Shown here one piece after another: positions 1-18,323 of a stretch of 64,000 nucleotides of DNA. A program made the position numbers and the translations under genes. The notes under the pieces are model-generated. The model did not search any database and was not told the DNA's origin. It saw nothing but the letters and a program-made list of their open reading frames with translations. The DNA is taken from contig CM026433.1 in assembly GCA_014871385.1 (NCBI GenBank), positions 5,467,585 to 5,531,584 on the forward strand, given 5' to 3'. This stretch comes from Ceratodon purpureus. Taxonomy: Eukaryota > Streptophyta > Bryopsida > Pseudoditrichales > Ditrichaceae. Each line of letters begins with the position of its first letter. Position 1 is the first letter of the stretch.

Positions 1-484
1 TGGTTCTTTGGAGGTGGATAACCCCCTAGGATCTACAAATAATGTGAACACGTTTATGAAGAAGAATATATATCCTATTGAATGGAAAGAACCGTAAACA
101 TTGTGGGTACACTAAAACAGTTTTTACCAATTGTCATTTAAAGAAACGAAGTTACTCATGTTTTAGCATACGGTAATGAATTAACATTTTATACTAACGA
201 ATCAAAAGAGTAAATGTCAACAACGAGATGATAAGAGGAACATCGCGGAGAGAATGCACTAGAAGTAATTCAACGCATAAATTGATGTACACACTTGGTT
301 TTTCATGCGGTGCACCTTACGTTTAAATGGTTAAGAGATTTGCATTTATATTTCACCGGTTTACGGTTTCATAAATCTCTTAGAAATATAGATCCAATTT
401 CTTCTCGAATAGTGGTATACAATGAAAATATTTATATAGATTCTTTGACTCTAATTTTTAATGGAATGATTTACCCCAGTTTTA

Positions 485-1010
485 TTTCTTTAATTTTACA
501 TACTCTCGTTCTTTAGTATTATGGTAGAATCAAAAATAAAAACATAAATAGTAGTTTAGATTATGAGAGAAACTGGAGATAATAATAAATTGAAAAAAAC
601 CAAAACAAACATTCAATTCTCTTGGGATTATGCAATTCATGGAAGGAATAAAACTCAAATCATTGTTTTCATAACAAATGGTCCAATTCTAATTTCTCAT
701 GCCTGGTTTAGAGTTATATGAAATATAAAAACTCTCCTTGCACTTTAATGTCTTTTATTTTACACACTTCCATACCGTAGTAGTATAGTACTGTGTTATA
801 ATTAAAAATAAATAAAAATCACTAGCTCACATTATGAGATGAGGAAGGGATAATAGTAAAAAACAAAACAAAAACACAAAACATTCAATCGTCACTGAAT
901 AACGCCAATTTGTGAACGACTAAAATTGAAATCATTGTTTTTATAAACAATTCTAGTTTCCCACGCCCAGAATTGAGTTGTAACTTATATGAAATAAAAT
1001 AAATAAATTA
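485..1010. repeat. Degenerate tandem duplication, about 270-bp period
   Basis: Two consecutive copies can be aligned by eye with an offset of about 271 bases. Shared landmarks are TTTTATTT..TTTTACA, AATCAAAAATAAA, TTATGAGA, AAAACATTCAAT, AAATCATTGTTTT and TATATGAAAT. The copies carry many substitutions and small indels, so the duplication is old. No coding capacity. Confidence 0.55.
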
Positions 1011-1687
1011 GGTAAGACATTTACATTATATACTATACGAATATATGTTTATTCATATACACTTTAACGTAAATATAAATATGGAATTGGATTCTAACTT
1101 GTACAATGTATAGTATATACGTACAAAAGTAATCACTTACTAATGACACAATGAGAGAATTTAACAAACACGATAATTCATAGAGACACATAGACTATAC
1201 TGTACCAAGGAAAAATTAAAAAGTCACGACGTGAAATACTTGGAGCTACAAGTACAGAAATAAAATTATTACACGAAAACGTATATTGACGGGACATAAT
1301 TTTAGAAATATATATATATTATTGGAATACTAAAAATACTGATGAAAGATGTTTGGTAGGGTGGTATTGTTTCGGAATAGTAATTAATTAAATTAATGAA
1401 CAACACAAAGAACACGAGGTTTGAGGACGGATATGAATATTAGAACTATAACGACGACGGGTGTAATATTAAGAAATAACGTATCGATACACTTGGGGAA
1501 AGCTGTGAAGTAGAAGTATATTCATAAGTAAACAAATGAGTGAATCATCAAAATAATAGACGAAAAAAAAATAGTTTGAGAGGGAAAGTATCTAAATTAT
1601 AATTATTAAGAGAAATAGACGACGGCCATGATGTAGTGATACATGGAGAGTTCAAAACGTATATATGAAAGAGGGGTACAGTACTCA

Positions 1688-1790
1688 ATAAAAACTAAAG
1701 CAGTAGGGTACATCTAGTAGAATATAATTCAAAACTAAAGCAGTAGGGTAGAATTAGTAAAATGGTGGAATAGTGGTCGAATTAGTAAAA
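1688..1790. repeat. Short tandem repeat (AAAACTAAAGCAGTAGGGTA)
   Basis: The block AAAACTAAAGCAGTAGGGTA occurs twice about 43 bases apart. A related GAATTAGTAAAAT block is also repeated next to it. It is a local tandem duplication in AT-rich DNA. Confidence 0.6.
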
Positions 1791-2678
1791 TATACTTTAA
1801 CATGGGTCATGGAGGAAATAAATCGAAATACGAACGTTCGAAACGATATGAAAGGAAGAAATTCACGAAATGACATTTACGGAGCTTCGAGGGTTGGAGT
1901 TGTAAATTAGACAAATTAGACGTTAAAAAAAGGGCATAAACTAGGGGGGAATAAACATAGAGGAAAATAAAGAAGAAGTAAATGAAAACCATATTCGAAA
2001 GTGGAAATTGTATAGAGGGAGGAACGTTAAAAGTACATAAAGAGATGGTAACTCGAATTAAATTGAGAATATGAAGCCGTTTAATGAAAGTATAATAGAA
2101 GTACTTATGTATTTAAAAAAACAAAAATTCAAAGCGGAGAATAAGAAGACGGAGAACTATTTAGATTACAATTTCTGAAACAAGTTTAGATGAGTTCGAT
2201 TTCTGCAAGGAACTTCTGGAGTGCGATGGTAGACAGCATGAAATGCGTACGACAGAAACAACAGAAATAATGATTCGAATAAATGACACATACATTAACT
2301 GTGGAAAGTGATTTCCACGGTTGACACACCGGAATACTAATTCCGGTAGGAAAATGATAAAAATTTAAAAATTTTGTGTTAGGAATACGGAAGTACTACT
2401 TAGATAAGTGAAACAACCGGATAAGACGGTTGGTCGAATAAATAAGAGAACCGGAAGGTCAGCCGGGTGAGATCCGGTCGTCTGCGGTGAAGGAGAGGGA
2501 GCACCGTCCGTATGACAGAACCCTGACACCGCAGACTTAAGGATAACCACCGAAAGGAACAACGCACGCGGGAAGAATGGCTGCAACCATTAAAGCGCCG
2601 CCGGTCGCGACCGTCCAATGATGAAAGGCTACGACCGTCCGTCATGATGAGCTATGAACGGGTGGGCGTGAGGGCAGG

Positions 2679-2687
2679 TATAAAAGG
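2679..2687 (+). promoter_or_regulatory. TATA box upstream of the broken coiled-coil ORF
   Basis: TATAAAAGG lies about 200 bases before the ATG at 2888, in otherwise GC-rich DNA. That spacing suits a Pol II core promoter with a leader of about 170-180 bases. It is the best promoter candidate for the ORF at 2888. Confidence 0.5.
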
Positions 2688-2887
2688 AGGAAGAACAGCC
2701 GTGCTCCTCCTTTCTTTTTGTCATTTTGTGGCGCGCTGGGTCCTTGGGTTCCACGGCGAAGGGCGCAGTTAGGGTTGGACGGTAGGAGAGAGACGGTGAG
2801 ACGGAAGTGTTTCCGTTAGGTGAGGGATTGTGGTGAGGATCGTGCGTGCAGGTGTTACCGGAGCGGAGGTGAGGAGGACTTAGCAGA

Positions 2888-4753
2888 ATGGGTAGAAAGG
2901 GGAAGGAACCGGCGGAGGAAGGACAGTTGTTCAGGGTACAACGGGTCATGCCGTTGATGCCGGCAGACGACGACGAGCAGGAGCTCCTCCGGACCGCTTT
3001 AGAAGCCATGGGCTGTGAACTCCTACTGGACAAGGCATGGGGGTGGAAACATGCCCTTCTGGCCCAGGAGATCCTCGTCAAGAATCCCGAGAATCGAGGA
3101 ACCATCCGGGGAGAGCCGGATAAGTGGACGGCACAACTCTGGAGGGAGACGTATGGTTTCAAGAACTCTAGAGAGATCTCGACACCGGAGACCCGGGAGT
3201 TTGTGTGGGGGTATATCAATGGGCCCGGAGATTGGAGAGAAGGATGGGAGCTGGATGACATCACGAATCCGGAGGCCCGGAGGGTCGTAGGGTTTATGAA
3301 CCCTATTTTCCATCCGGAAAAGCCCAAACGGATAACCATCAAGTGGGCATCCGTTTTCATTGGGGCCATGATCGGTGAATTCACGGTAGACTGGGGCCTC
3401 ATGATTAAGACGATAGTCGACCGGCAGGTAGCCAATCTCCGGAAGACCAAGAAGCAGACCACCTGCCTTCCGTCTTTCCTCATTCACCTCTACCGTCACA
3501 GGGGGCTGTTGAGCCCTAAGGAAATCCGGGAGTACGATGAAATCAAGAGCATACAGCAGTACGCCGAACCGGAAGAAGTGTCCGATCAAGACGATGATGA
3601 TGATGTTAGCGAGGTCTCTCCCACGCCGGCTAAAAGACCTCGTCCCAGCCCGGAGAAGGGACAGCCGTCCGGATCATCTCGGACTCCCACCCCGACCAAG
3701 AGAACCTTGAACACGGAAGTCCAAAAACCCACCGGACCACCGGAGCACACCGGGGACCCGTGCCAGGACTTAGTTAACCTTTCGGAGCAGGTGTCGACGT
3801 ATGCTCGGTTCCTACAGTCGACTAGGCAGACGGAGGGCCGGTTGGCTAAGGAGGTAATTGCCATTACGGAAACGGACGGGTTGGAGGAATGCCTGAATAT
3901 TCTTCGCAAGCACCGGGACTTGGCCAGTCTCCAGAACAAGCACATGGACCGGCTAGAGAAGTACCGGGAGAAGATTCTGAAGCTCGAGTAGGAGGTGCTT
4001 GATGCCCGGAAGGATTACAGTGACGCCCGTGACCGGGCAGCCGAGGCCATCTAGTCGGTCGTCGAGATCAAGGCCACCTTAGCACTTCCGGTGGATGTGG
4101 CCAATCAGTGCGCCGTTTACCAAGCCTTCTTGACCCGTCAGCCGGATCCGACTGTCAAGAAGATTGTGAAGTTCATGCACGACCGGACGCAGGTGATGAA
4201 GGACACTTGGGTGCAGATGAAGAACATGGTGGAGATCATCAGTTCCGCAAAGGCCGGCCCGTCATCAGAGCCACCGGCAGAACGGGAGGAGCCCAGACCA
4301 CCGTCCCCACCAAGGGAACCGGCGCCGGTGCCACCTCTAGCCTCTCCGATACGGTCGACCATCCGGTCAGTCCAACAGGAGATAGGACATCCGCTGGAGG
4401 ATCCTCTCCCGGATACCTTGAGCAGTCTGCACACTCTGCCCAATTTGGCTGGAGTCGAGACTGTTAACCCCGGAAACATCCCTTTGGAACCGGACCAAGG
4501 ACCACCACCGAAAGACTTTATGCCGGTACAGGGATCTCCGGAACAGCTCCAGGTGGATCTCAGCGCAGTGCCGGTGGCGGCACGATCTCCATCCCCGGCG
4601 GTTCAAGCCGGACGATCCCGGAAGGCCAGCGACCCGTCGGCAGCTGATGCTCCGGAAGAAGGCCCCTCGCTGAAGAAGCTGAAGAGGGTACAGAAGAAGG
4701 AATGGATGGATGGAACCCGGCACAGTCCCCGGTTAGATAAGCACAAGGAGTAG
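2888..4753 (+). pseudogene. Transposon-associated coiled-coil protein with two in-frame stops
   Basis: One reading frame of 622 codons runs from ATG 2888 to TAG 4751-4753. It is broken only by TAG at 3989-3991 and TAG at 4052-4054. Codon use, charge pattern and coiled-coil character continue across both stops. The N-terminal 210 residues are globular and Trp-rich. They include a hydrophobic block ending in TVDWG, then CLPSFLIHLYRHRGLLSPKE, which loosely resembles the plant 'putative transposon protein' domain family; that is inference. Next come an acidic stretch, a Pro/Ser/Thr-rich linker, a coiled coil containing both stops, and a Pro-rich basic tail. Both stops would be CAG (Gln) before a single C-to-T change. 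No reverse transcriptase or transposase is adjacent, and I could not define element ends. It is either a decayed element gene or, less likely, two shorter proteins. Confidence 0.55.
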
Positions 4754-4756
4754 AAG

Positions 4757-5990
4757 TTAGGATAAGGACCGGATAAAATGGCAGCGACTAACGATGGGGC
4801 TCAAGTGCACCCGGCTGCCAATCCGGATAGATAGCGGCAGTAACTAGGAATAGAAGGCGGCCACCGGTCCAGGATTTCCGGATCCAAGATCCGGAAATTC
4901 TGGATCTCGTTGGGCCACTTGGTCGCTTTAGGAATCGATAGGTTTTAGTATTTAAGCTGGACGTTTTTCCAAGGCCGGGGCCTTGTTTTGTACGCCGTTT
5001 TGTTGTTGCAATTGAGAATATACTTTTGGATTTGTTGTGTCAACCGGCTGCTGACGGGTCCGTTGCCGTATGGTTTGTTGGTACTATTGTCTTCAGTAGT
5101 GTTCCGGAGGAGTGTTGAACAGTGGGATAATCTGGAGAGCGCCCGGAGAGACTAGGGAGGTGTCAAGCGTCGAGTGTTGACGGTTTCCAGTCCCGGAAGG
5201 AGCCCGGAGGGGAGGAGAGACGTACTGCAGCAGGGCTGGTAGTCTCAAGGACACGGAGAGTCGTGTGTACACCGGGATCCGGAAACGGACCGGTCGCTTC
5301 TTGTAGATGGGATAAAAGCCGGATGTCCTACTGCGAACCAATCCGGAATGGAGATAGTATAGTAGAATACCGTGCAGCCGTAAGGTGATGTCATTGTAGT
5401 ATGATTTCCGTATCCATAACCGGCACTGAGTAGCTACTCGGACCGGTACCTAGCCATACGGAAGGATTATTACTCCACTTCTCGGGTGGTAGATAGGAAC
5501 AGTGGGGTGTCCAGCCACTTTAAGTCACGGGACGGTGGAAAATCCAGCCACTTGAAAGGATAGACGGATCAGTGGGAACCGGCCACTAGTCTAAAAAGCC
5601 GGAAAATAGGAACGAGGCAAAAACTACCGGATTAGGCCAACCGGTCGAAAGACGGAATACGGTTGGATCTGGGTGGTGATTTCCGTTATGATCTAAAAGG
5701 AAGAAAACTATAGGTCTTCGTGGGAACGAACACGGAGTGGTTTACTTTGGAGGGTATTTAGTGTGAATTAAGTGCCTTCCGGAGGAATACGGATACCACA
5801 TCGTGCTACATTAACTTCGGTGGAGCGTACGGAATAATGACTCGTTGAAGAATTTAGATGCTTTGCATACCATGAAGTATTTTAATTCATGTTTACATTA
5901 ACTGCTGTTCTCATTTTAATTGGTGAAAGAAATTAACAGGTTTAGTGTAATATGTGGTCGGAAGATGTAGCATTATATGTTTTTATCATT
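4757..5990. other. Non-coding tail of the first element
   Basis: This stretch is rich in CCGG and CCGGAT words, like the ORF before it, so it probably belongs to the same element as a 3' non-coding part. Related words (GGAATACGGA, GATTTCCRYGG) appear near 2310-2390 and near 5660-5790, but I could not align long terminal repeats. Composition becomes AT-rich after about 5840. Confidence 0.4.
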
Positions 5991-6009
5991 TGTATTTAAA
6001 AAAAGGGGG

Positions 6010-6545
6010 GGGAGGGAAATTTCCCGCGGCTGCGACGGCCTCGTCCCCACGGTCGGGGGCCGTCTCCACGGCCGTGGGCCGTCTCCGCGAGGGGCCGTCC
6101 GCGGGGACGGCCCTTCGACCGCGGCCGTAATCGAACGGCCGTCGCCTTGGAGACGGCCCCGATCGGACGGCCGCGGGCTGTCGCCGACGGTGCCGTCTCC
6201 AAGGCCGTCTACGCGGCCGTCCCCGCGCGGTCGGCCGCCATCGGACGGCGACGGCCGCGGGGACGGCCGCGATCGGAGGGCCGCAAGCCGCCCCCTCGGG
6301 GGCCGTCTCCAAGGCCGTCCCCTCGGCGACGGCCTTCATCGGACGGCCGTCGCCGAGGAGACGGCCGCGGAGGCACGGGCCTCCGCGGCCGTCACCGTGG
6401 CCCCCGAGCCGACGGCCCCCAACGGCCGTCGTCAGGTTTGGGACGACGGCCATTGGCCGCGGCCGTAGGATCGGGGGGCGACGGCCCTAGGCTCGGGGGG
6501 ACGGCCCTAGGGTTGGGGGCCGTCGCTATATATGGCGACGGCCGT
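6010..6545. repeat. Left subterminal GGCCGTC / GACGGCC array
   Basis: More than 20 copies of ACGGCC or its complement GGCCGT are packed into about 530 bases of very GC-rich DNA, many inside the palindrome ACGGCCGT. hAT and other cut-and-paste elements often carry clustered short subterminal motifs that bind transposase. The array sits just upstream of the TATA box at 6526. Long open frames on both strands here are by-products of the composition. Confidence 0.65.
6526..6535 (+). promoter_or_regulatory. TATA box of the RING-H2 ORF
   Basis: CTATATATGG sits at the inner edge of the GC-rich array, about 250 bases before ATG 6780. It is followed by a pyrimidine-rich CACTTCCTCACTTCACTCTC stretch typical of plant transcription starts. 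Confidence 0.5.
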
Positions 6546-6779
6546 CCCCCACTTCCTCACTTCACTCTCCTCAATAGTCCCTCTCCTATTGCTACAGTTT
6601 CCCAATTCACTTGGGAGCTTGTTGGTACGTGGGGGTGAGGAGATGGGGGTCCCTTTTTATTGTGGGGGGGGGGGGAGTTTTTGAATTTTCTGTATTCGTT
6701 ATTTTGTAAACCGTCATTTATCAACTCCTTGTTTTCTTTAAAACAAAACCATTACGTTTTTGTTTAAAACGAGGTTACT

Positions 6780-9700
6780 ATGGCGGATCCGGAACATGAT
6801 GAGATTGGAGGAACCGGGAAGAGGAACAGGCCGAAGGGAACGTGCCACAACTTTTCTTGGGAGATCCTAGACAACAAAAACATTGTAGCAGAAGAAGGCT
6901 GGGAATCTGTAGGGGAGATTTTCTGGACTTTCAAGGAGTGCAAGAAGTATGTGAAGATGTATCACATTGACAAGTTGTGGCCCCGAGAAGAACACGAGAT
7001 GAACACACGGACTTTTACTTGCAAGCCCTGGTCATGCATGGATGACCATTTCTTGCATCGGGCATATGAAGTCTGGACTACTATGTTTGGGCAACGGAAG
7101 CCCAACAAAGGCCATTTCAATTATACCATTTGCAGTATGGTATATGCGGAGCTAATATTGAAGCGGAAGATTAGTTGGTGTACGTACCCCACTACGAAAG
7201 ACAGGCCGTTGCAAATTGGATGGATGGTAAGAGACATTCCGGATTTATATCTGATCGATCCTTTGCAAGCAAAGAAGGTTGTAGCGGAGTTCCGAAAGCG
7301 GCAGTGGCCACATCTAAAGAGCTTTCCGAAGAATGAAGTAAAAAAATTACAGAATGAAACTCCGCATCGTCCAGAGGAAAAGAAGCCCGTTGCCATTGCC
7401 AATGTGATCGCTACGATGTTCCCCGTTGCCACAGAAACTAATGTCCCTACTATTCCTAGAGCAGACCTGGGAATCACGGTGAAATCTTCCAACGATACAA
7501 AGGGCAAGGCAGCCGTAGATGAGGTGGAAGTGGAGGTGGACAATGACTGCTCAACACATCTTACGGCTGCGGAAGCCTGATGCTCCAACCCTCGTTCAGT
7601 GGATGATGGTCCAAGTTCCTTGGCAATAGTACAAGTGCCTACCAAAGAGGATAGCACAAAGGATGCAGTTCATTCCATTTCGGAGATTATGGAGCTGGTG
7701 AAGTCGATGCCAAACAACGAATCATTGAAGGAGTTACTAGATTTTAGCATCAAATTGACGGAGGTGTCCTCTGATGAACAGCGTGGGGGCTTAGAGAATA
7801 CCACAGAGGGAGACGCTGCAGGAAAAACCACGGAGGAAGTGCAACAAATTCATAATGTGTTGAAGATTGCACACACCCTGAAAGATGGGGCTTCCGTATT
7901 AGGCGCTATGGCACCAGATCTCATAAATATGGCTCATGCATTTGGAACTATCACTCCGGGCATGATACAGGGTGCCCTCCGCTTTGAGACTTTGGCATCT
8001 TCCATTAAGCCTCTTCTGGAAGACCGTGTGAAATTAGGCGAAGAGAACGTGGCCCTGAGTAAGGATTTAATGGATGCAACGGAACAAATCAAGAGTTTGA
8101 CAAGAAGGTTGGACCATGTGAAGATGAATTTTTATGCACAATTGGAAGAGTGCAAAATCTACCACCCGGTAGATAAGGAGAAAAACAAAACAAAAGAAGT
8201 GAAGCCTACGGTGAAGAAGGAAGTGGTGAAGGTGGAAGGAAAGGATCGTATTATTGAAGTACTGAGCGATGGTGAGGATTCCGATGACCTTGGCCTTTCT
8301 AAATTTTCAAATAAAAGTGGAGAGGGGGCCACACAAGGGATGGCGTCTCAGAAGTCTAAAATGACATCTGGTCCAGTTCCATTGGACATTGGCTCTAGCC
8401 AAGCAACACCAGGACATGAGGATAGAGGAAAAGGGCCAATGGATGATTCAATAGAATTAGACATTCTTTTACGGGATTTGGAGGTGGCTAGAAGGGAAAG
8501 AGACGAGGCCCGTACGGAACTGGAAAGGCTGAAGACCACCATACAGATGGTAGATGATACACCATCTTCCATAAGGGCATTATCATGGCTTGGTTGGGTC
8601 CACAAACTACGAGATAAGGAGACAATAGTCTCTAGAGCACAACAGGATATGAAGAAATGTGCAATTACTTCTATGGATGTCGAAGAAGCTATCCAATCAT
8701 CTTTACAGAAGTATAACGAGGCAGCAGCCAAGGGCGGCGAGGATGCTACAAAAATCACGATATGGCGCGATGTAGGAGAAATGATGGAGCGCACATTACA
8801 TAGTTCCAAAAATAAAGAAGGGGTCATTGACTGGGCGCTAGAGGTCGAGGAGGGGTGGATGCCGTACGATGTACTATCATCTCATTTGGATGAATCGAAA
8901 CGTGTGGTTATCCATACCCGCAAACCGTCGTAGGAATATTCGAAGGAGACGTGTCCCATCTGTCAACAATACTTTGGGCCGGAAGGGGCCTTTGAGATGG
9001 GAAATTGTAATCACAAGTTCCACATAACCTGCATCGCGAAGGCTGCTTTAAACAACAAACAGTGTGTTATGTGTCGCTCCTCAATTAGTTCACGTTTTTA
9101 CGAGATGCTGGGACTACAACACGTGATGCCGCCTGGGCATGAGTTTGATCGGTGGAATTTACCACTAGACCAACTACCTAAGAAAGAGCTGAATTATTAT
9201 GAATGGGGCAAATCACTGGCTTGGAACCCGGAGACAATGACTCACCAACTATCTACGGCTAACGATGCCGGAATGGACGATCTTTCATGGATGACACATG
9301 ACTATGAGGTGGAGATGAGGGCACGTGAAATTCCGGATGCCAAGGACCGAGAATTTTTTTGTAGGAACTTCGGTGGACATTGGAGTATACATGGCAATCG
9401 CTTCTTCCGGTTTCCAAAACCGGAAGTTGTGGTAGATGCCGACGGTAAGAGAAGAGAAGTAGAACGGGACTATGGCCAACTTGATGAGTACAAGATGTAT
9501 GACAGAACCCCGGTTGGGAGGGCACTTGTATTGGCCAAACTAGAAGAAGCCATTCAGCATCGTCGCACTTTTACAGAGGAATCCTTCAAATATTCGGACC
9601 TAGACTACTGGGTGATCATTAAGAAGTCTGACGATGCTCTTCAGAAAATAGTTTGCGACTGGAGAAGGGCACTTCGTGCGGAGGATAATTCCTCTCGTTG

Positions 9701-9950
9701 GTCACGCAATAGGATTGAGAAGATTGTGCAAGAAATAGTAGCCAAGATTGAGAAGGCAAAGGAGTTGTGGAACGGGAAGAATTCCAAGAAGCGCAATCGA
9801 GACAACCCTTATGAAGATGATCCCGAATGGGGGGAAGATAATCGTTGTTCTTTGGATCGCGTGGAAGAAGAATATCGATCGGGGGGTACGATTACACATC
9901 CAAGCCAGCGACGCCAAACTCGGAGGTCAAATGCAAACAATGGACGTTGA
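6780..9950 (+). pseudogene. Coiled-coil RING-H2 protein of the hAT-like element, two in-frame stops
   Basis: A single 1057-codon frame from ATG 6780 to TGA 9948-9950 is broken only by TGA 7578-7580 and TAG 8931-8933. The first segment is a Trp-rich globular domain with a hydrophobic block ending in RKISWC. The second is mostly charged coiled coil, about 7850-8700. Directly after the TAG the same frame gives a full RING-H2 finger, at about 8952-9074. Its ligand spacing is C-x2-C-x14-C-x-H-x2-H-x2-C-x10-C-x2-C. A charged C-terminal region with KKRNRD follows. RING-H2 domains usually recruit E2 enzymes in ubiquitin ligases, so an E3-like role is plausible but unproven. An ATG after the TAG (8997) would omit the CPIC half of the finger, which argues the stops are secondary mutations. 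CGA and CAG are the likely ancestral codons. Confidence 0.6.
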
Positions 9951-10032
9951 GTACAATATTTTCGTTGGACATGGTACCCGCATTACTACGGTTAATGTGA
10001 CAATACACTGGGTGATAGTCGTATTTAGAGCA

Positions 10033-10053
10033 GTATATATATATATATATATT
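10033..10053. repeat. (TA)n microsatellite
   Basis: An uninterrupted TA run lies in the short convergent spacer between the 3' ends of the RING-H2 ORF and the transposase. The rest of 9951-10416 shows no gene. Confidence 0.8.
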
Positions 10054-10416
10054 GGTTGCGGAGCCGGGTGTATGGACTTTACACTACTTCTATATGTACT
10101 TGCAAAAATTACCTCTGGTTTTAATACAATTTCATTTATGTTTTCTCGGAGTTGCATTTGTGTTGAAAGAATTGTTAGTACTTAGATGCATCGAACTTCA
10201 TATGTAGATTTTGTACATTCATTACGAGAAAGAAATTGCGAGAAGTACAATCAAAGTAAAAACAAGTACACAACGTGGAGGACAATATTGAAGAGGCAAG
10301 CACCACCGCTTAAATGAGATATGATATGATAATGGTTTCTAGAAATGGACATTCATAAAAGAGTGGCATTCTAGGGTGGTGCACTGGAAATGCCGCCTTC
10401 TAACTATCGTGCCCAA

Positions 10417-13394
10417 TCAGGCCACGTAATCGCTGTCGTCCTTCACTTCGGCCCCACTAGGACCGGAAGAATCGTATTCGTCATCGCCATCGCTCTCGCG
10501 TACCTTCTTCACCCTCGCCTTAGTCTTCTTCTTTGACTCGAATGGATTCAGGAATTTCTTTGGGCCATTCGGGTCATCCAAAGGAGTTTTTGGCTTTCCA
10601 GGATTGAAAGCCAACACCTTCTGAGTCTTGTCTACAGCCTTTCGCTTGGACGTGGCTCTAGCAGGGGGTTTCTCAGGAAATATGTCCGGTTTTCCCAAAG
10701 CCAACTTCGGCCCAAAGAGATGCCCAATTGGAAGTCCGTCATCAGTAGAGAGGATGCCCGGGTCCGCTTGTCGGGTTCGGACCAATCTCTTCCTACATTT
10801 CTCCGCTACTTCAGCAGCCTTAGCATCTGCCTTCATTTTTTTAGACAACTCAACCAACCTCGTGGACGATTCGAACCCACCAACTTGGACCCTAGTCTTT
10901 GCAGTTCCAAACAATGTCCGAGATGCACCCGATACGGGTACGGGCACATCCTCCTTTGTAGTGGGTGGAACACTGGAACCATATCGTCCTTCAGGCGGTT
11001 GAAGTTTGGAGAAACAACCTTACAAGTATCAATGGTGGGGTCTCCCTCTTTCTTTGGTACGACCAAATCCACGGTAGTATGAGAGGATCCTCCCCGGAGA
11101 ATCTTATCACTGTTTAATAAACCGTCTCCATTCAAAAAAGAAGCAAGATGAATCGTATCCTCCTCGTTGGTACCTTCTTCTTCGACATCATCATACTCGA
11201 AAGCACGCTCCATCGGCGCAGGAGAACAACGGGATTTTCCTTTCGGAGACACCTCGAGGTCGTCGACTGGGGCCTCAATGGGGGGGTCCATTGATAGATC
11301 GTCGAAGGGTAGATCAACATCAGACTCACTAGAGTAGTCAACGTCCTCGGTTTCCACGGCCTTCGGATCCTCCTTCCCCTCCAACTCCCCGTAGAACCTG
11401 CCTAAGGCACTCAACTTGGACTGGGAAATTATCTTGGAATTTGTATACACAAACACGAGGTCATTAGCCCTCTCCGGAAGTAAACGGTTTCGCTTCCTAT
11501 CGTGGACAAAGGAGTAGCTACTCCAATTCCGCTCGCATGAAGAAGAAGACAGGGGCTGAGCTAAAATCCTTTTTGCAATTGGGGAAATGAATTTACCAGC
11601 GGATCCGTATATATTCCACCAACCAGAAGGCGGCAGTTGTGACTTAGAGGAGTCACGTACGTCACGAAACGGAGGATAAGCTTCACGAAATGCAAAGAAC
11701 TCTTCTATGACCACTTCCTTCAGTGTCGGAGGAGCCATCGACAACAAGACCTCCTTCGCCGATGCCATCGCATCAGTATCATTGTGAAGGTCCTCATCGT
11801 CAATAAGATAAGGGTTTAGAAGCGCAGCAGCACACTGTAAGGGTGATTTAATCATGGCTTTACGCTCATAAAATGAGTCCTCGCAATATCAGCATTGTCA
11901 GAGTCTAATTTGAAGGGCTCATGGCGTAAAGAGAGGACATGCTTCTCAAGGTTGCGGAGAACGACGTAGGCTTTACCCAATGCCGATTCCTTCGCATCAA
12001 ACTCTCGTAGGGCATATACAATGGGACTCGTCATCCACTTGAAGTTTGCACATTGCTCCCAGAAAACGTCATCCAAGACAACCCTCTTAACATCGCGTGA
12101 GATCTTCGCTTTGTCACGGGCAGATAAGGTCTTCTTCGTTTCGTAGTTTCTCCAGTCAGGATCCACAACGCTCTGCTCCAATGCTCCTCGAACCTTCAAT
12201 AAACGCGAAATCATAATGTAGTGCGATGCAAACCTAGTCTGACCAGGCATCAGCAAGCTAAGTTTTGCCTCGTGCTTTCGAAATACCGAGAGTGGCATTT
12301 GCCTTATCTTTATGAACTTAACCAAGTTCTTAGCCCGATCTAGGAGCTCCTTCACCCACTTCATCTTACTCCAATCCTCCAACAAAAGGTCCATCGCATG
12401 GGCAGCACATCCTTGGACAAATATGGATGGATAGAGTGCTTGGACCAACTTTCCGGCATTAAGCATCACCGGAGCATTATCGTAGCATACTTGAATGATG
12501 TTCTGTTCTCCAACTTGTTGGATAAACTTCTCAATGACGGTCGCTACGAAAACGGCATCCTTCTCTTTCCCACTCGTGTCAACAGCTCCCAAGAATAACT
12601 CACCAGCAGGAGTTTATTAGAGGGCGACTGCTTACAGAAGTCCACCCATCCAGGGCCAACGTTCCCCCGTACTTCCTAACACTTGAAAAAATCCTATCAT
12701 TCAAGGAAGTCTCCAAATCAGTCCTTGCTTGGGCTAGTAAATTTGTTCGGAGATGGTGGAAAGATGGAGGTGTGTATGATCTCTTCATGTTGGACGTCTT
12801 CAACACCGCGTCCTTGAAAGAGGCACTCCGAGCCACGTTAAACGAGATACTGTTCTCGTAAAAACATGTGGCCCATGCTTTGTCGCATTCCCGCCTCTGA
12901 GTCTCTTCGAAGCCCTCTTGAAGGGTAGATTGCCTCTTTGCCTTCAAAGGAGGAAACGGTCCACTACCTTCCCCCGGAAGAGTGGAAATGAAAGGTACAC
13001 CCTCACCAAATAAAACGGGTTCATTCTTCGGAGTTGATACCCGGGATCCAGCACATGAGTCCACATCCATGGGAGTGTTCACTCTCGGGGATATATTGCC
13101 ACGAGTCACGGGGGAAGTACTCTGCTCCGACATGAATATTCTGGAATCGTTGGGGAATTTTCCACCGCAATTCTTGAACAAGGACAGTATAGCCGGTGAC
13201 AAATTAGTGCAACGACCTACTCCACTAGTCCGTAGCCCTAGAACTTTGTCATAGCCCAAATGACTGAGCATCCGCTCAATCCTCTTTGCGAAAGTGTTCT
13301 TGCATAGCATACATTGAACCATCTCAGTCTTCTTCTTCTCCGCATCGATCATATGGACTTCGGTATACCATGGGGAGTAACTTTTAGACGCCAT
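10417..13394 (-). pseudogene. hAT-family transposase with three frameshifts
   Basis: Four overlapping minus-strand frames (13394-12600, 12592-11852, 11855-10833, 10947-10417) together make one protein of about 990 residues. Order: a BED-like finger (CMLC..H) near the N terminus; the DUF659 start LDGWTSVSSRPLIN; CYDNAPVML; GCAAHAMDLLL; then the hAT dimerisation block with SGWWNIYG and CERNWSSYSF. The D, D and E catalytic residues of hAT enzymes are thus visible. Frameshifts lie near 12620 (RPLIN to TPAGELF), near 11880 (ADI to SFYERKAM) and near 11000. About 300 residues continue past the dimerisation domain as acidic then basic sequence, longer than usual. Start chosen at MASKSY because upstream in-frame sequence has no ATG before a stop. 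TATA at 13599-13606. Confidence 0.8.
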
Positions 13395-13598
13395 TGGTGC
13401 ACTTGATAGATCGCCCGGAAAAACTTCAAAAAATCGGGGTACCACGTCCTCAAGAGAACTAGAGCCTCCGAAGAAGCTCCAATTCAACGCACTTTTGAAC
13501 GCCGCCGTTCACCATGCAACAGATACACACGTATATTAGTGGAACTAGTAGCACATGGAGTACAATTCAGAAGTGTAATGCCAACTTTCAGGAGGGGT

Positions 13599-13606
13599 CT
13601 TTTATA
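13599..13606 (-). promoter_or_regulatory. TATA box of the hAT transposase
   Basis: On the minus strand TATAAAAG lies about 205 bases upstream of the chosen ATG (13394). It sits just inside the right GC-rich array, mirroring the left side of the element. Confidence 0.5.
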
Positions 13607-13649
13607 CTCAACCCATGAAATGCCAAGGGGTAAGCCCTAAAAATCAAGG

Positions 13650-13930
13650 GAGGACGGCCGTCGAGGCCGTAAGTCAAGCGAGGGGCCGTCCGATCATGGA
13701 TTGTCACGGCCGTCGAAGGGGCCGTCGCCGGGGACGGCCCCCCCCTCCGCGGCGACGGCAAGGGGCCGTCGCCGGGGACGGCCCCCCCCCCACCGCGGCG
13801 ACGGCAAGGGGCCGAAGCCGGGGACGGCCCCCCCCTCCGCCGGGACGGCCCCTTCCCGACGCGGCCGACGGCCCCCCCCCCCCCCGCTCCGCGGCGACGG
13901 CCGCACCCTCCCCCGCAACCCCTCCCCCGC
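13650..13930. repeat. Right subterminal GGCCGTC / GGGGACGGCC array
   Basis: Repeated ACGGCC, GGCCGTCGCCGGGGACGG and poly-C runs form a second array matching the left one in word content. Open frames here on both strands are compositional artefacts. The word GGATTGTCACGGCCGTC at about 13694 resembles the element's terminal sequence. Confidence 0.65.
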
Positions 13931-13941
13931 GTAGAAGGTGT

Positions 13942-13963
13942 GGTTTCACCCCGGGGTGAAACC
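13942..13963. repeat. 22-bp perfect palindrome
   Basis: GGTTTCACC CCGG GGTGAAACC reads the same on both strands. It lies between the GC array and the right terminus. GGACGTCC palindromes occur three times just outside it (about 13995-14035). Confidence 0.75.
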
Positions 13964-14044
13964 TATGCGGGTGATTTTTTTTTTCTAAGTCACAGGACGT
14001 CCTCTGGCGCTGGCGGACGTCCGCGGACGTCCCCACGTCCCGAG

Positions 14045-14070
14045 CGTCCCGGACGACCGTGACAACCCTG
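14045..14070 (-). mobile_element. Right terminal inverted repeat candidate of the hAT-like element
   Basis: Read on the minus strand the edge is CAGGGTTGTCACGGTCGTCC, fitting the hAT pattern (CAGGG followed by TGTC). Everything beyond 14070 changes to ordinary base composition. The adjacent octamer GGGTCAGG would be the target duplication, but I could not find it at the left side. Confidence 0.5.
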
Positions 14071-16353
14071 GGGTCAGGTAACGGTATCAATAGCACCATC
14101 ACCAGTTCAGTCGCTCGAAAGATGGCTAAACGGAAGCGCAGCAACCGAAACAGAGCTCTGCTCGGGAGCTTGATGCTTCTGCATCGTCTACTTGCGTAAT
14201 GTCTCTCCACCAAGCAGTTCCCTCGAGAGCTCGAAGCATATTCTGAGAAACACTGTGCTTTAGAAAGGAATCGGTGGAGACACTCTTGGCTCCTTTGCTG
14301 CAAATGAGGAGAAGGTATTTAGACTCTGTCATCATCAGCACGTAAGAGAACAAGAGAAAATACAAGCTAAGGTTGAGGTACCTTAACCCCTAAAGGTGAG
14401 TGAAGCCCAAACCGGGTCAATTTGACTTTGGTCAGGTTCTGAATCACTGTATATAAATTGGATGAAGTTGAATGTTTTTGGCTCATCGCAGAGTTTTTTA
14501 ATACCTTTCTAATGACACCATTCACGCTTCAAAATTCCTCATACTTTGGGAGATATTCATGGTCAAAGTTTAGAAACACTACACGTATGATGCTGAAATG
14601 TGTCCAAAATTGCAGTGTATGCTCATTTATTCCCAAAATCTACCCGAAATAATTCTTTCCCATTTTACAAAGAGATTTTTTTTTTTTTTTTTCAACTTTG
14701 AACATTACGATCTCACAAATGGTGAAGAATACGACCCTAAGATTTGGTACACACATACATGGACAAGTTAGGTACAAGATCTTACGGCTGTACATACTTA
14801 AGTAAGAGTGACTTCTCCATATACAGTTTATGAGGAAAAAAAATTAAGTAAAAATAAAGGAGTTGGTACATTGATGAAGATTGGAGTATACATGCTACTA
14901 GAACGTGAACAAGAGAACACAATTCCAAAAAAAACAAGATTAATATGTACCTCATTTGTATGTAGCCCTTCAAGGTCTTGAAGTACTTTGCACTTTGAAA
15001 AATTGTACAAATTTCAACATCGGCAAATAATTCATGGAAAAATTTGCATTCTCAACCAAAACTAACTTATAAGTTCCCGGGTAAAATATCACCCTATCAA
15101 TGGCCGGTCCAGAAATAGTGTAGGTAGCTTAAGTTCACGGGGTTTAAGATAGACTGTGGAATATCAGTGCGTAAGACAACAAGAGAAAATACAAGAGTTA
15201 CGAGAAGTCTTTGTTGCTGGATCAAGCATGCAGTATTTTATATATGGACCAAGAGAGTGGCAAATGGCAATGCGTTTATTTTCAAATTAAAATAAAGTAG
15301 TTGTGAATCTTTCTAATTAAGCTATATCTAGAACCAGTAATACACCCCCTCTACAGTTAATCTCTTACTAATCACAGGGCACGTGCGGATTGAACAGTTC
15401 CGTAGTAAGTACAGTACCGACACAGGTGTCGCGTACCAGACCATGAATTGAGAATCATGCAGATTCCAGACGCTCGAAAGGCAGAAGTTCGTTCTAATTT
15501 GGAAGGGGCGGAGAGCTGGGTGTGTAGGCTGGCAAGCTCTCATCTACAAGCGTATCTCAGTAGGCTTCCAAGGAATGATTCTTGAATTCTCGCACATCGT
15601 GATGTTAATTTTGCTGCGGGATGATGGATCTATAAGTTTAGTGAAGCCCAATCCCGCCAACTCATCATTTCCAGCTTCCAGAATGCACGAGTCGAAAGCC
15701 ACCAGGAAGCGAATCCCGCCAGTGGCGAAGCCAGGGGGCCCTGCAGTTAAGAACATCGGCAATCCTTTTCCTCTACTACGCATTCTCGGTGTTGGTCCAA
15801 AATTAAGGCTTTTACAAACCCGCTTTTGCATGACAATCAAATTTAGCTGAGGGTTCAAGCTTACATACTTCGGTGACATCGATGCAGTCGAGCGGCAGAT
15901 CGTAAACATAGAGCATTCACAGTACCGTACCGGTATAAGTCCAAATCATCATTTCCTCTATCGAAAAATTTAAACTTCTAGCGAGATCACACACTTGGGT
16001 GGAAACCACTAGTCGATGTTCACTGGTTAAATTCTTTCTCTTTTATTCTAAGAAGGGTTCTGCATCACTAGTTAAATTCTTTCTCTATTGTTCCCGCACA
16101 TTAGGTCGGTGATAAGTGGTCAACCACTATATCTGGATCTGGAACTCGGCGATGCGAGACCTAGCTGCGGGGGAAATATGGAAGCGAATCCAGCGAATTC
16201 TGCCTTAACAATGTATTTTCTTGCACGTGATTAATACATTAATCCATTGACTTCAAGAAAAATATGGTACCAGCGGGGATCGATATGATAGGAAAAAAAC
16301 GTGTCAATTGCAAAGAAGGAAACAACGTGCTCGAAGGTTTTTTTAGCTGATCA
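14071..16353. other. Intergenic region with old repeat fragments
   Basis: No convincing gene. About 14690-14790 matches, in inverse orientation, a repeat at about 35465-35565 (shared words ACGATCTCACAAATGGT and CAACTTTGAAC). About 14935-15062 is a diverged inverse copy of the MITE seen at 29705 and 30519. TTAACCCCTAAAG, also the end motif of the element at 52778, occurs at 14381. CACTnGTTAAATTCTTTCTCT is duplicated at about 16020 and 16065. Confidence 0.5.
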
Positions 16354-16453: not shown

Positions 16454-18323
16454 ATGGCTTTCTCTCCTTCTCCAGCAGTGCAGCTTCTTCTCTTACTTTC
16501 GAGCCTGGCCCTAGCTGGTAAGTGTTACACACTCACACCGTGTACAGGGTCATGCATGAACAACTGTTACTCTCTCATTTGTTGAATGCTACATACAATG
16601 ACAAAATATCATGATCTTGCCTGGACTGACATTCCTAGATTCATACTGAGCTCAGCTCTCATGAACTTACGGGAGTATAACCTGGAGTGCGTGTTTAACG
16701 ATCATTGATTGATTGCATGGCACAGGACTAGCAGAAGGCTCGATTGCTTCAAATGGGGTGTGCAGTGCTTTCACCAAGAAGAATACCTGCGGTGCCCAGA
16801 GCAGCTGTTGTTGGAGGGCCGGGTACGGGCCATGTCGAAGTGTGAGCAAGGCAACCGATAAGTTCAACTGCGGGAGCTGCGGGAAGGTGTGCAAAGCGAA
16901 AGAATATTGCTGCAACGGTCTGTGCACAACCGCTCTCTACGACAACAACAACTGCGGTAATTGCGGCAACAAGTGCACGGGTGGACAGGTCTGCATTGCC
17001 CGATCTTGCAAGTGCTCGTGCGAGAAAGGAAAGTATCAGTGCTGGACCGGCACTAAGTGCGTGAAATGGAGTGGAGACCATTCCAGCGACAGGAACAACT
17101 GTGGTACCTGCGGTCACGTTTGCGCTGCCGGACTTACATGTTGCAGTGGCAGGTGCATCGACACCACCAGTGACCTGAACAACTGCGGTTCCTGTGGAAA
17201 GAAGGTCCCATCGGGATCCACCTGCTGCAAGGGAGTCGCTTCTTACACCTCCAGCGATGCCAAGAACTGCGCCGCTTGTGGAAACAAATGCCCTGCAGGA
17301 ACAATATGCTGCGGTGGGAGCTGCACCGACACCTCCAGCGACGTGAAGAACTGCGGTTCCTGTGGCAACGATCTTGCTTTGGGGTCCAGCTGTTGCACAG
17401 GAATCTCCGCTGACACCTCTAGCGATGTGAACAACTGCGGCACTTGTGGAAACAAATGCTCTGCAGGATCAACGTGCTGCAGTGGGAGCTGCGTCGACAC
17501 CTCAAGGGATGTGGAGAACTGCGGCTCTTGTGGCAACCAGCTTGCTTTGGGATCCAGCTGCTGTACGGGAATCTCCAGTGACACCTCTAGCGATGTGAAC
17601 AACTGCGGCTCCTGTGGAAACAAATGCTCTGCAGGATCAACATGCTGCAGTGGGAACTGCATCGACACCTCCAGCGATGTGAACAACTGCGGCGCCTGTG
17701 GAAACCAATGCTCGGCAGGATCAAAATGCTGCAGTGGGAGCTGCACCGACACGGCATCGGATTCGAAGAATTGCGGTTCTTGTGGCAACCAGTGCCCGTC
17801 GCCTCTGGACTGCGTGAACGGAGGAAATGATTGTGGCCTATTCTTTCCAGCTGTTGATACGCCTCAACCTCTTTCTTGGAAGTCGGTCTTTGAGCTTCCA
17901 GAGCCTGGTCGTGGCTACATTCAGTGCACAGCAAAAGCCATCACCGATGTGCACGTTCACTTCAGTCCAGTGCCCCGTGATCCAACAGATCAACCTTGGT
18001 TGGGAATTTACGTTGGCGGAAACTCAAATCGGGAATCCGCCATCGTTCATGTCAGAGCCGATCAGAGTTGGTATCGAGACTACCACTGGGGGTTGCAGTT
18101 GGAGAATTCTGGCGGTCTGAACGATCTGTGGTTCTCGGTGGACAGGTGGACAAAGACAGTGCAGGCCGGGACAGGAGTGCGAGGGACTCCGAGCTCGAGG
18201 ATCATCATGAGCTGGGTCGACCCAGATTTCGTTGCCAACATTCAGTACATTGCACTCGGGAGTTTCTTATTTGATACAACTTACACTAACATAGCTGTGC
18301 ACCCCTTGGAAGCTGTTGATTGA
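16454..18323 (+). CDS. Secreted Stig1-repeat protein with C-terminal FAMeT-like domain
   Basis: Two exons, 16454-16517 and 16726-18323, joined at GT/AG with matching phase, give 553 residues. Exon 1 is essentially a signal peptide with a Leu-rich core ending near ALAGLAEG. The middle holds eleven NCGxCG motifs in about 25-35-residue repeats of the type CC-x-G-x-C-x-D-TSSD-x-NNCG-x-CG, the hallmark of Stig1-family extracellular proteins. Some units (NDLALGSS, NQLALGSS) lack one cysteine pair and alternate with full units, pointing to duplication of a two-unit block. From about residue 406 a 148-residue domain with IYVGGNSNRES and a Trp-rich strand pattern resembles the farnesoic-acid-O-methyltransferase (FAMeT) domain, better viewed as a ligand-binding beta domain than an enzyme. 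Likely apoplastic. Neighbours are unrelated. High confidence as a gene, moderate for FAMeT. Confidence 0.88.

Follow-up and report, generated by a model that had tools for sequence, protein, structure and literature searches.

In the moss Ceratodon purpureus, a transposon of the hAT superfamily carries, next to its transposase gene, a gene for a RING-H2 protein that has been inherited and kept by selection together with the transposase, as well as two further genes, one of them kinase-like. We describe this unit from a window of 64,000 nucleotides (the whole stretch analysed; C13:5467585-5531584, contig CM026433.1 of assembly GCA_014871385.1, 362.5 Mb in 151 contigs), which contains the right half of one older four-gene copy, broken by later insertions. 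A preliminary description of the window had recognized two convergent genes, RING-H2 (+) and hAT transposase (−), within one mobile unit, and the reading frames and Pfam matches bear this out. It had placed the unit at 6010..14070; of these limits the right one stands and the left one falls, as the unit spans twice that length, comprises four genes and starts at C13:5434043, 33.5 kb left of the window. From a shared protein domain and motif arrays, we propose, at a probability of about one half, that this is a hAT element with self-targeted regulation or anti-silencing, in which an N-terminal domain would read the arrays, the RING finger would ubiquitinate bound silencing factors and the kinase-like protein would assist.

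An intact copy on contig C11 (coordinates X below; C11 = X + 13964573) is 16,783 bp long, runs from CAGGGTTGTTCAAATAGACGTCC to ..CCGTGACAACCCTG and is flanked on both sides by ATTTTTTT. Its genes, numbered 1 to 4, form two convergent pairs in the order kinase-like (+), gene 2 (−), RING-H2 (+) and transposase (−). The unit is bounded on either side by a short inverted repeat of CAGGG type, CAGGGTTGT, and intact copies elsewhere in the genome span 16.3-17.1 kb between CAGGG..CCCTG ends. The exact end patterns occur 153 times (right) and 190 times (left), against 0 for a reversed-pattern control. Among units picked from the first 100 of the right and the first 100 of the left ends, the 8-bp target-site duplication matches at 8/8 positions in 11 of 15 full units, at 7/8 in 2 and at 2/8 in 2; both open reading frames thus lie between defined ends with 8-bp duplications, a point that the preliminary description had put forward for checking. 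Its alternative, that the ends belong to unrelated insertions, fails on the paired ends and duplications of the full units. The two 2/8 units look recombined, their flanks being as expected from recombination between copies: at C4:18204332-18221092 the flanks differ and one equals the duplication of a C5 copy, and at C4:21828244-21844709 the differing flanks equal the duplication of C4:21792929 and the flank of a C8 copy, L020.

The transposase of the C11 copy matches the hAT dimerisation family PF05699 (39.3 bits versus 21.4) and DUF659 (123.7 versus 34.7), and that of the window matches DUF659 with E 1.5e-24 and Dimer_Tnp_hAT with E 1.4e-10. Its C-terminal part aligns weakly with Hermes (E 0.09), placing SCERNWS on ASERTFS; the stretch containing the E scores 11 bits and that of the first D a non-significant 0.6 bits, these residues being presumably the catalytic D, D and E of the RNase-H fold. 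By the features tested, the unit is a hAT superfamily transposon, and its ends, duplications and near-identical copies speak strongly for cut-and-paste movement by the transposase. In the leading alignment, the right halves of 19 other copies, chosen as intact, share 97.4-99.5% identity with the C11 copy, from which we infer recent activity of the unit.

Complete lists of both ends on C1 to C5 resolve 65 left ends into 13 full units (16.3-17.1 kb), 21 short ones (4.0-7.1 kb) and 31 that are neither. One short unit, L051 (C1:8111084-8115697, 4.6 kb), shares the ends of the full units and has an 8/8 duplication of its own. A short unit is flanked on both sides by CCATCTAC, and the short units were perhaps moved by the same transposase. 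A CAGGG end at X4723 was considered as the left end of the C11 copy and rejected in favour of the end at X7946, which gives the 8/8 duplication; the surrounding DNA corresponds to a related short unit, apparently the site into which the C11 copy inserted.

The RING protein has 1,056 aa in the C11 copy. Its finger matches PF13639 (zf-RING_2) with 31.7 bits there and with 33.4 bits (E 5.5e-8) in the window copy, both over the cut-off of 27.3, whereas the RING-H2 model zf-rbx1 stays below its own (28.8 of 31). The coiled coil that had been proposed for this gene does not reach significance in Pfam, its best match, with E 0.022, being under the cut-off. Gene 1 encodes 491 aa with a Pkinase match of E 3.8e-5; the motifs HND..N and DWG were seen by eye, and their roles are ones that we presume; we call the protein kinase-like only. 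Gene 2 (500 aa) has no family match, and an NCBIfam search of gene 2 and the RING protein gave none. The N-terminal domain of the RING protein recurs in that of gene 2, with 132 aligned positions at 33% identity (E 3e-10 in a single comparison).

Protein searches of the genome scored the best candidates for each gene (RING, 119 of 1015; transposase, 150 of 1024; kinase-like, 141 of 1022; gene 2, 82 of 1120), so that all counts are minimum values and more distant relatives may have escaped. A convergent transposase match accompanies 93 of the 119 scored RING matches, at a gap of 1.85-2.54 kb, mostly about 1.91 kb. When the scored matches are joined by those of an exact RING-finger word (108 matches, 100 of them listed) and by 12 extra transposase places from a search with a relict transposase piece, which otherwise listed mostly copies already known, the two genes are convergent neighbours at 109 of the 137 RING and 109 of the 162 transposase places, among the matches listed. 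In the other pair, 74 of the 82 scored gene-2 matches converge with a kinase-like match. The full set of four occurs in order in at least 38 units, and at least 11 of these have every frame open (12 by script, minus C2:24266137, which has a stop in the kinase-like frame). Judged by length, with frames containing internal stops then removed by hand, intact frames among the scored matches number 37 for RING (42 by length), 31 for transposase (35) and 21 for both (24).

The association is old. Two diverged copies, the relicts D1 and D2, both on C6, were fetched, and each retains the convergent RING-transposase pair. By stretch, D1 is 39-61% identical to the C11 copy in the RING protein and 49-73% in the transposase, and D2 61-70% and 57-75%. 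With pieces kept apart, the ratio of non-synonymous to synonymous substitution rates (dN/dS) in the two relicts comes to 0.36 and 0.33 in the RING protein and to 0.25 and 0.29 in the transposase; residues 701-790, which include the finger, are the most constrained part of the RING protein, at 0.14 and 0.15. On nucleotide alignments the true frames give 0.25-0.35 (0.35 for the D2 transposase, against 0.29 on pieces) and shifted-frame controls 0.92-1.19. Synonymous divergence is similar for both genes (0.87 v 0.89 and 0.60 v 0.54). Both relicts are broken, with partly decayed fingers, and such decay should raise rather than lower dN/dS. Among 18 of 20 fetched recent copies, taken at a common frame length, the corresponding ratio of polymorphisms (pN/pS) is 0.54 for RING and 0.35 for transposase. 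Since the pair is kept in the relicts, dN/dS lies below the value of about 1 of the shifted frames and dS is alike, we regard the RING gene not as a passenger but as part of the transposon, inherited with it and kept by selection. Co-inheritance across dS 0.54-0.89 also removes the description of the element as composite. Kinase-like matches go down to 74% identity among those listed.

Across 8.1 kb, the window copy shows 96.9% identity to that on C11. Its features, in window coordinates, are as follows.

1..1173 (+): AT-rich spacer of the unit, between the gene 2 and RING promoters; 94.6% identical to the C11 copy, with homology beginning 247 bp left of the window
1174-1755: stretch of 582 bp without counterpart in the C11 copy
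1756..2299 (+): unit spacer, continued; 94.5% identical to the C11 copy
2300..5810 (no strand): later insertion, read as a solo long terminal repeat (LTR), with TG..CA ends and the 5-bp duplication TTAAC
5811-6009: resumed unit homology just left of the array
6010..6560 (no strand): GGCCGTC/GACGGCC array upstream of the RING gene, including TATATATG; 27 motifs versus 0.4 in shuffles
6780..9950 (+): RING-H2 gene, a single frame with two in-frame stops (7578 and 8931); 96.2% identical to the C11 protein
6870..7247 (+): N-terminal domain common to gene 2 and the RING gene, by protein comparison
8952..9077 (+): RING-H2 finger, PF13639
10417..13394 (−): hAT transposase gene, with frameshifts near 12.61, 11.86 and 10.95 kb; 994 aa in the intact C11 copy
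13641..13930 (no strand): GGCCGTC/GACGGCC array upstream of the transposase gene, with a TATA box near; 12 motifs versus 0.2 in shuffles
13990..14056 (no strand): subterminal GACGTCC-type repeats, read from the sequence
14057..14070 (−): right terminus, CAGGGTTGTCACGG as read on the − strand
14071..14078 (no strand): right copy of the target-site duplication, GGGTCAGG

The right edge, which the preliminary description had read as a hAT end, is one: CCGTGACAACCCTG is exact there on the + strand, homology to another copy stops and the duplication follows. The duplication agrees at 7/8 positions, with GGGTCAGC (C13:5434035-5434042) before the left end. An element edge at 6010 was rejected, as homology runs on through 5811-6009, 1756-2299 and 1-1173 and past the window start, and left truncation was likewise rejected once the left end and the 7/8 duplication had been found. 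Left of the window, the kinase-like match of this copy (C13:5435702) has no stop and its gene-2 match (C13:5437472) has one. The distance from the kinase-like match to the RING match exceeds that in the C11 copy by about 31 kb; because the 3.5-kb insert and the 582-bp stretch explain only about 4 kb of this, a further 27 kb or so would be inserted left of the window.

A duplication of 9-10 bp around the insert at 2300-5810 was rejected for TTAAC, and a relationship of its protein (2873-3988) to the RING N terminus was rejected on comparison. This protein has 110 scored matches, often with a frame of 626-628 aa, and lacks a Pfam match; several matches form same-strand pairs spaced 9,377 bp apart (C6:46457250/46466627, C8:17743736/17753113 and C3:3459962/3469339). 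The insert perhaps belongs to a retrotransposon family whose LTRs themselves encode a conserved protein. Elsewhere in the window, at 16713-18323, a frame of 536 aa lies over 84-bp tandem repeats and contains seven Stig1 stretches and a match to Methyltransf_FA.

Dense arrays of one short motif precede the genes of the unit. That GGCCGTC arrays and TATA boxes accompany both window genes, as noted in the preliminary description, is borne out: counted on both strands, no shuffle exceeded 3 motifs at the RING array or 2 at the transposase array, and the TATA boxes are TATATATG for the RING gene and, for the transposase gene, TTTTATA, that is, TATAAAA on the − strand. The C11 copy has 34, 23, 22 and 26 motifs upstream of genes 1 to 4 against shuffle means of 0.4-0.7, and in each relict 6 motifs precede the RING gene, where 0.1 are expected from shuffles. 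The C11 unit has 47 perfect inverted repeats (arms of at least 8, loops of 0-9, both strands), compared with 5.0 in block shuffles, and 18 of these repeats fall within the gene 4 array; other settings gave 30 against 2.3.

A separate inverted repeat, AAACAAAA..TTTTGTTT (window 6741-6765), stands directly before the RING start codon and recurs at the corresponding site of at least 16 of 20 copies, and D2 has a similar one; a hairpin in the 5′ leader is possible.

Arrays, shared domain and finger together suggest how the unit might work. The transposase would cut and paste CAGGG-ended units, the 4-7 kb derivatives included. The N-terminal domain of gene 2 and of the RING protein would read inverted GGCCGTC pairs upstream of each gene and so locate both proteins on the element's own DNA; we infer this action at the element's own promoters from the arrays, the shared domain and the analogy with VANC discussed below. 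There the RING finger would recruit a host E2 and ubiquitinate promoter-bound proteins, most likely host silencing factors, in a step assisted by the kinase-like protein, and the unit would stay expressed where the host would otherwise silence it. That the accessory genes help the unit to escape host silencing may be so; ubiquitination by the RING protein, whether of silencing factors or of the transposase, is our guess, as is DNA binding by the N-terminal domain, since the domain lacks a Pfam or NCBIfam match. In its most specific form, as a sequence-addressed proteolytic anti-silencing system in which the domain reads inverted GGCCGTC pairs, the RING-H2 finger ubiquitinates silencing proteins and the kinase-like protein prepares them, the proposal is tentative and, on balance, improbable.

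Several results weigh against a self-targeting four-gene system. The shared N-terminal domain matches no Pfam or NCBIfam family, and gene 1 falls below the Pfam Pkinase cut-off (23.7 versus 31.7 bits) and has only weak kinase-like matches in NCBIfam, far under cut-off. The D1 transposase has none of the motif in the 261 bp upstream that were examined. Over some 11 kb to the left of the RING gene, neither D1 nor D2 yielded a gene 1 or a gene 2; great age is therefore shown for the RING-transposase pair only, and is less certain for all four genes together. Only 68 of the 119 scored RING matches have an upstream kinase-like match within 12 kb, and 8 of the 82 scored gene-2 matches have no convergent one. 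That RING and transposase frames occur together, which the preliminary description had put forward for checking, is largely borne out by the 109 paired places; among the matches listed, a partner is missing from 28 of 137 RING and from 53 of 162 transposase places, and no listed transposase, whatever its orientation, comes closer than 6 kb to those 28 RING places. Later insertions have split some of the units, which bears on these unpaired places.

The main rival makes the RING protein, with gene 2, a self-repressor or dosage controller acting at inverted repeats in the promoters, which would limit transcription or mark the transposase for degradation, and control of transposase level had also been raised in the preliminary description. 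In its favour, four perfect inverted repeats of the C11 copy share an ATA/TAT centre with different arms (X8867, X13260, X13416 and X16882) and lie upstream of genes 1, 2 (two) and 3; in the window copy TATATATG sits within an inverted repeat with 9-bp arms (6518-6543), and D1 retains an ATA/TAT-centred repeat before its RING gene. Against a mean of 0.50 in 100 shuffles the count of 4 stands out, but the shuffles reach a maximum of 5, so that at least one had as many and the signal is suggestive only. A consensus TATA scan of the C11 copy places TATATAA of gene 1 inside one of these repeats, but TATATA of gene 2 (−110) outside its repeat and TATAAAA of the transposase gene without one; by the same scan the RING gene has none, and its sequence there reads ATATAT. 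As many recent copies also argue against strong restraint of the unit, we regard self-repression as unlikely, if worth taking seriously.

Strong conservation of the finger is by itself no proof of ligase activity, and the RING finger might instead be structural, a zinc fold for assembly of the transposition complex; we consider this quite unlikely, because the solved structures closest to the finger segment are RING fingers of ubiquitin ligases (Arkadia, RNF126 and RNF38; E 2e-4 to 1e-3). Plant transposons do capture pieces of host genes, according to the available part of PMC13317346, and host relatives outside the units are possible, the closest copies coming first among the matches listed. 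Chance capture of the RING gene and its neighbours as transduplicated passengers is nevertheless very improbable in view of the purifying selection, the like dS and the same position in relicts whose RING proteins are 39-70% identical. The broken state of the window copy could suggest two unrelated insertions lying side by side by chance, but this explanation is refuted by the same convergent layout and gap (1.85-2.54 kb) in at least 93 pairs and by 15 units with both ends.

Usual hAT elements span a few kb and hold one transposase gene. The moss unit resembles hATs with DUF659 transposases in its DUF659 and Dimer_Tnp_hAT domains, its CAGGG..CCCTG ends and its 8-bp duplications, and differs from usual hATs in its length of 16.3-17.1 kb and its four genes. 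We know of few plant DNA transposons with accessory proteins. The name Lanisha was rejected for the four-gene unit because Lanisha is described as EnSpm-like. Among Arabidopsis Mutator-like elements (MULEs), VANDAL21 encodes VANC, which binds short-motif arrays of its own transposon, with loss of DNA methylation (PMC5735166, available part); as far as that text goes, both are multi-gene DNA transposons with dense short-motif arrays in their own non-coding DNA. The transposase is of MULE type there and of hAT type here, and in the moss unit the arrays are shown, while binding and anti-silencing are putative. VANC is, to our knowledge, not a RING protein. The nearest precedents appear, from the available parts of the two sources, to be KIU, a gene with a Ulp1 (SUMO protease) domain that is one of three in non-TIR MULEs (PMC13317346), and TET/JBP dioxygenases in fungal transposons that include a hAT lineage, where the accessory enzyme is thought to counter silencing (PMC12730594). 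The KIU elements likewise join a plant DNA transposon to a gene of a ubiquitin-like pathway, as far as described there, but with a protease domain instead of RING-H2 and in a MULE instead of a hAT. The TET/JBP elements likewise join a hAT to a presumed anti-silencing enzyme, but this is a dioxygenase and the hosts are rust fungi; the words RING and ubiquitin are absent from the main text of PMC12730594 so far as available. By title and start of abstract, no hAT carrying a RING or kinase-like gene was evident among the papers listed, and earlier annotation of the unit as a hAT is possible.

The copies are unevenly placed in the genome. Contig C6 (110.5 Mb, 30.5% of the assembly) holds 83 of the 119 scored RING matches, of which 16 have an intact RING frame, compared with 21 of the 36 elsewhere (Fisher p 6.5e-5). 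The C. purpureus genome is given as 360 Mb, with U and V chromosomes of more than 100 Mb each (PMC8000587, available part). If C6 is a sex chromosome, it would serve as a graveyard of copies, which elsewhere remain intact, and this would bear on how transposons fill large sex chromosomes. The RING-H2 protein has been selected as long as the transposase, and with this protein, intact recent copies and dense arrays, resistance of DNA transposons to silencing becomes directly testable in a moss, and the shorter derivatives are usable as ready reporters. We know of no earlier transposon that defends itself by targeted protein destruction; if proteolytic anti-silencing is true of this unit, it would be the first.

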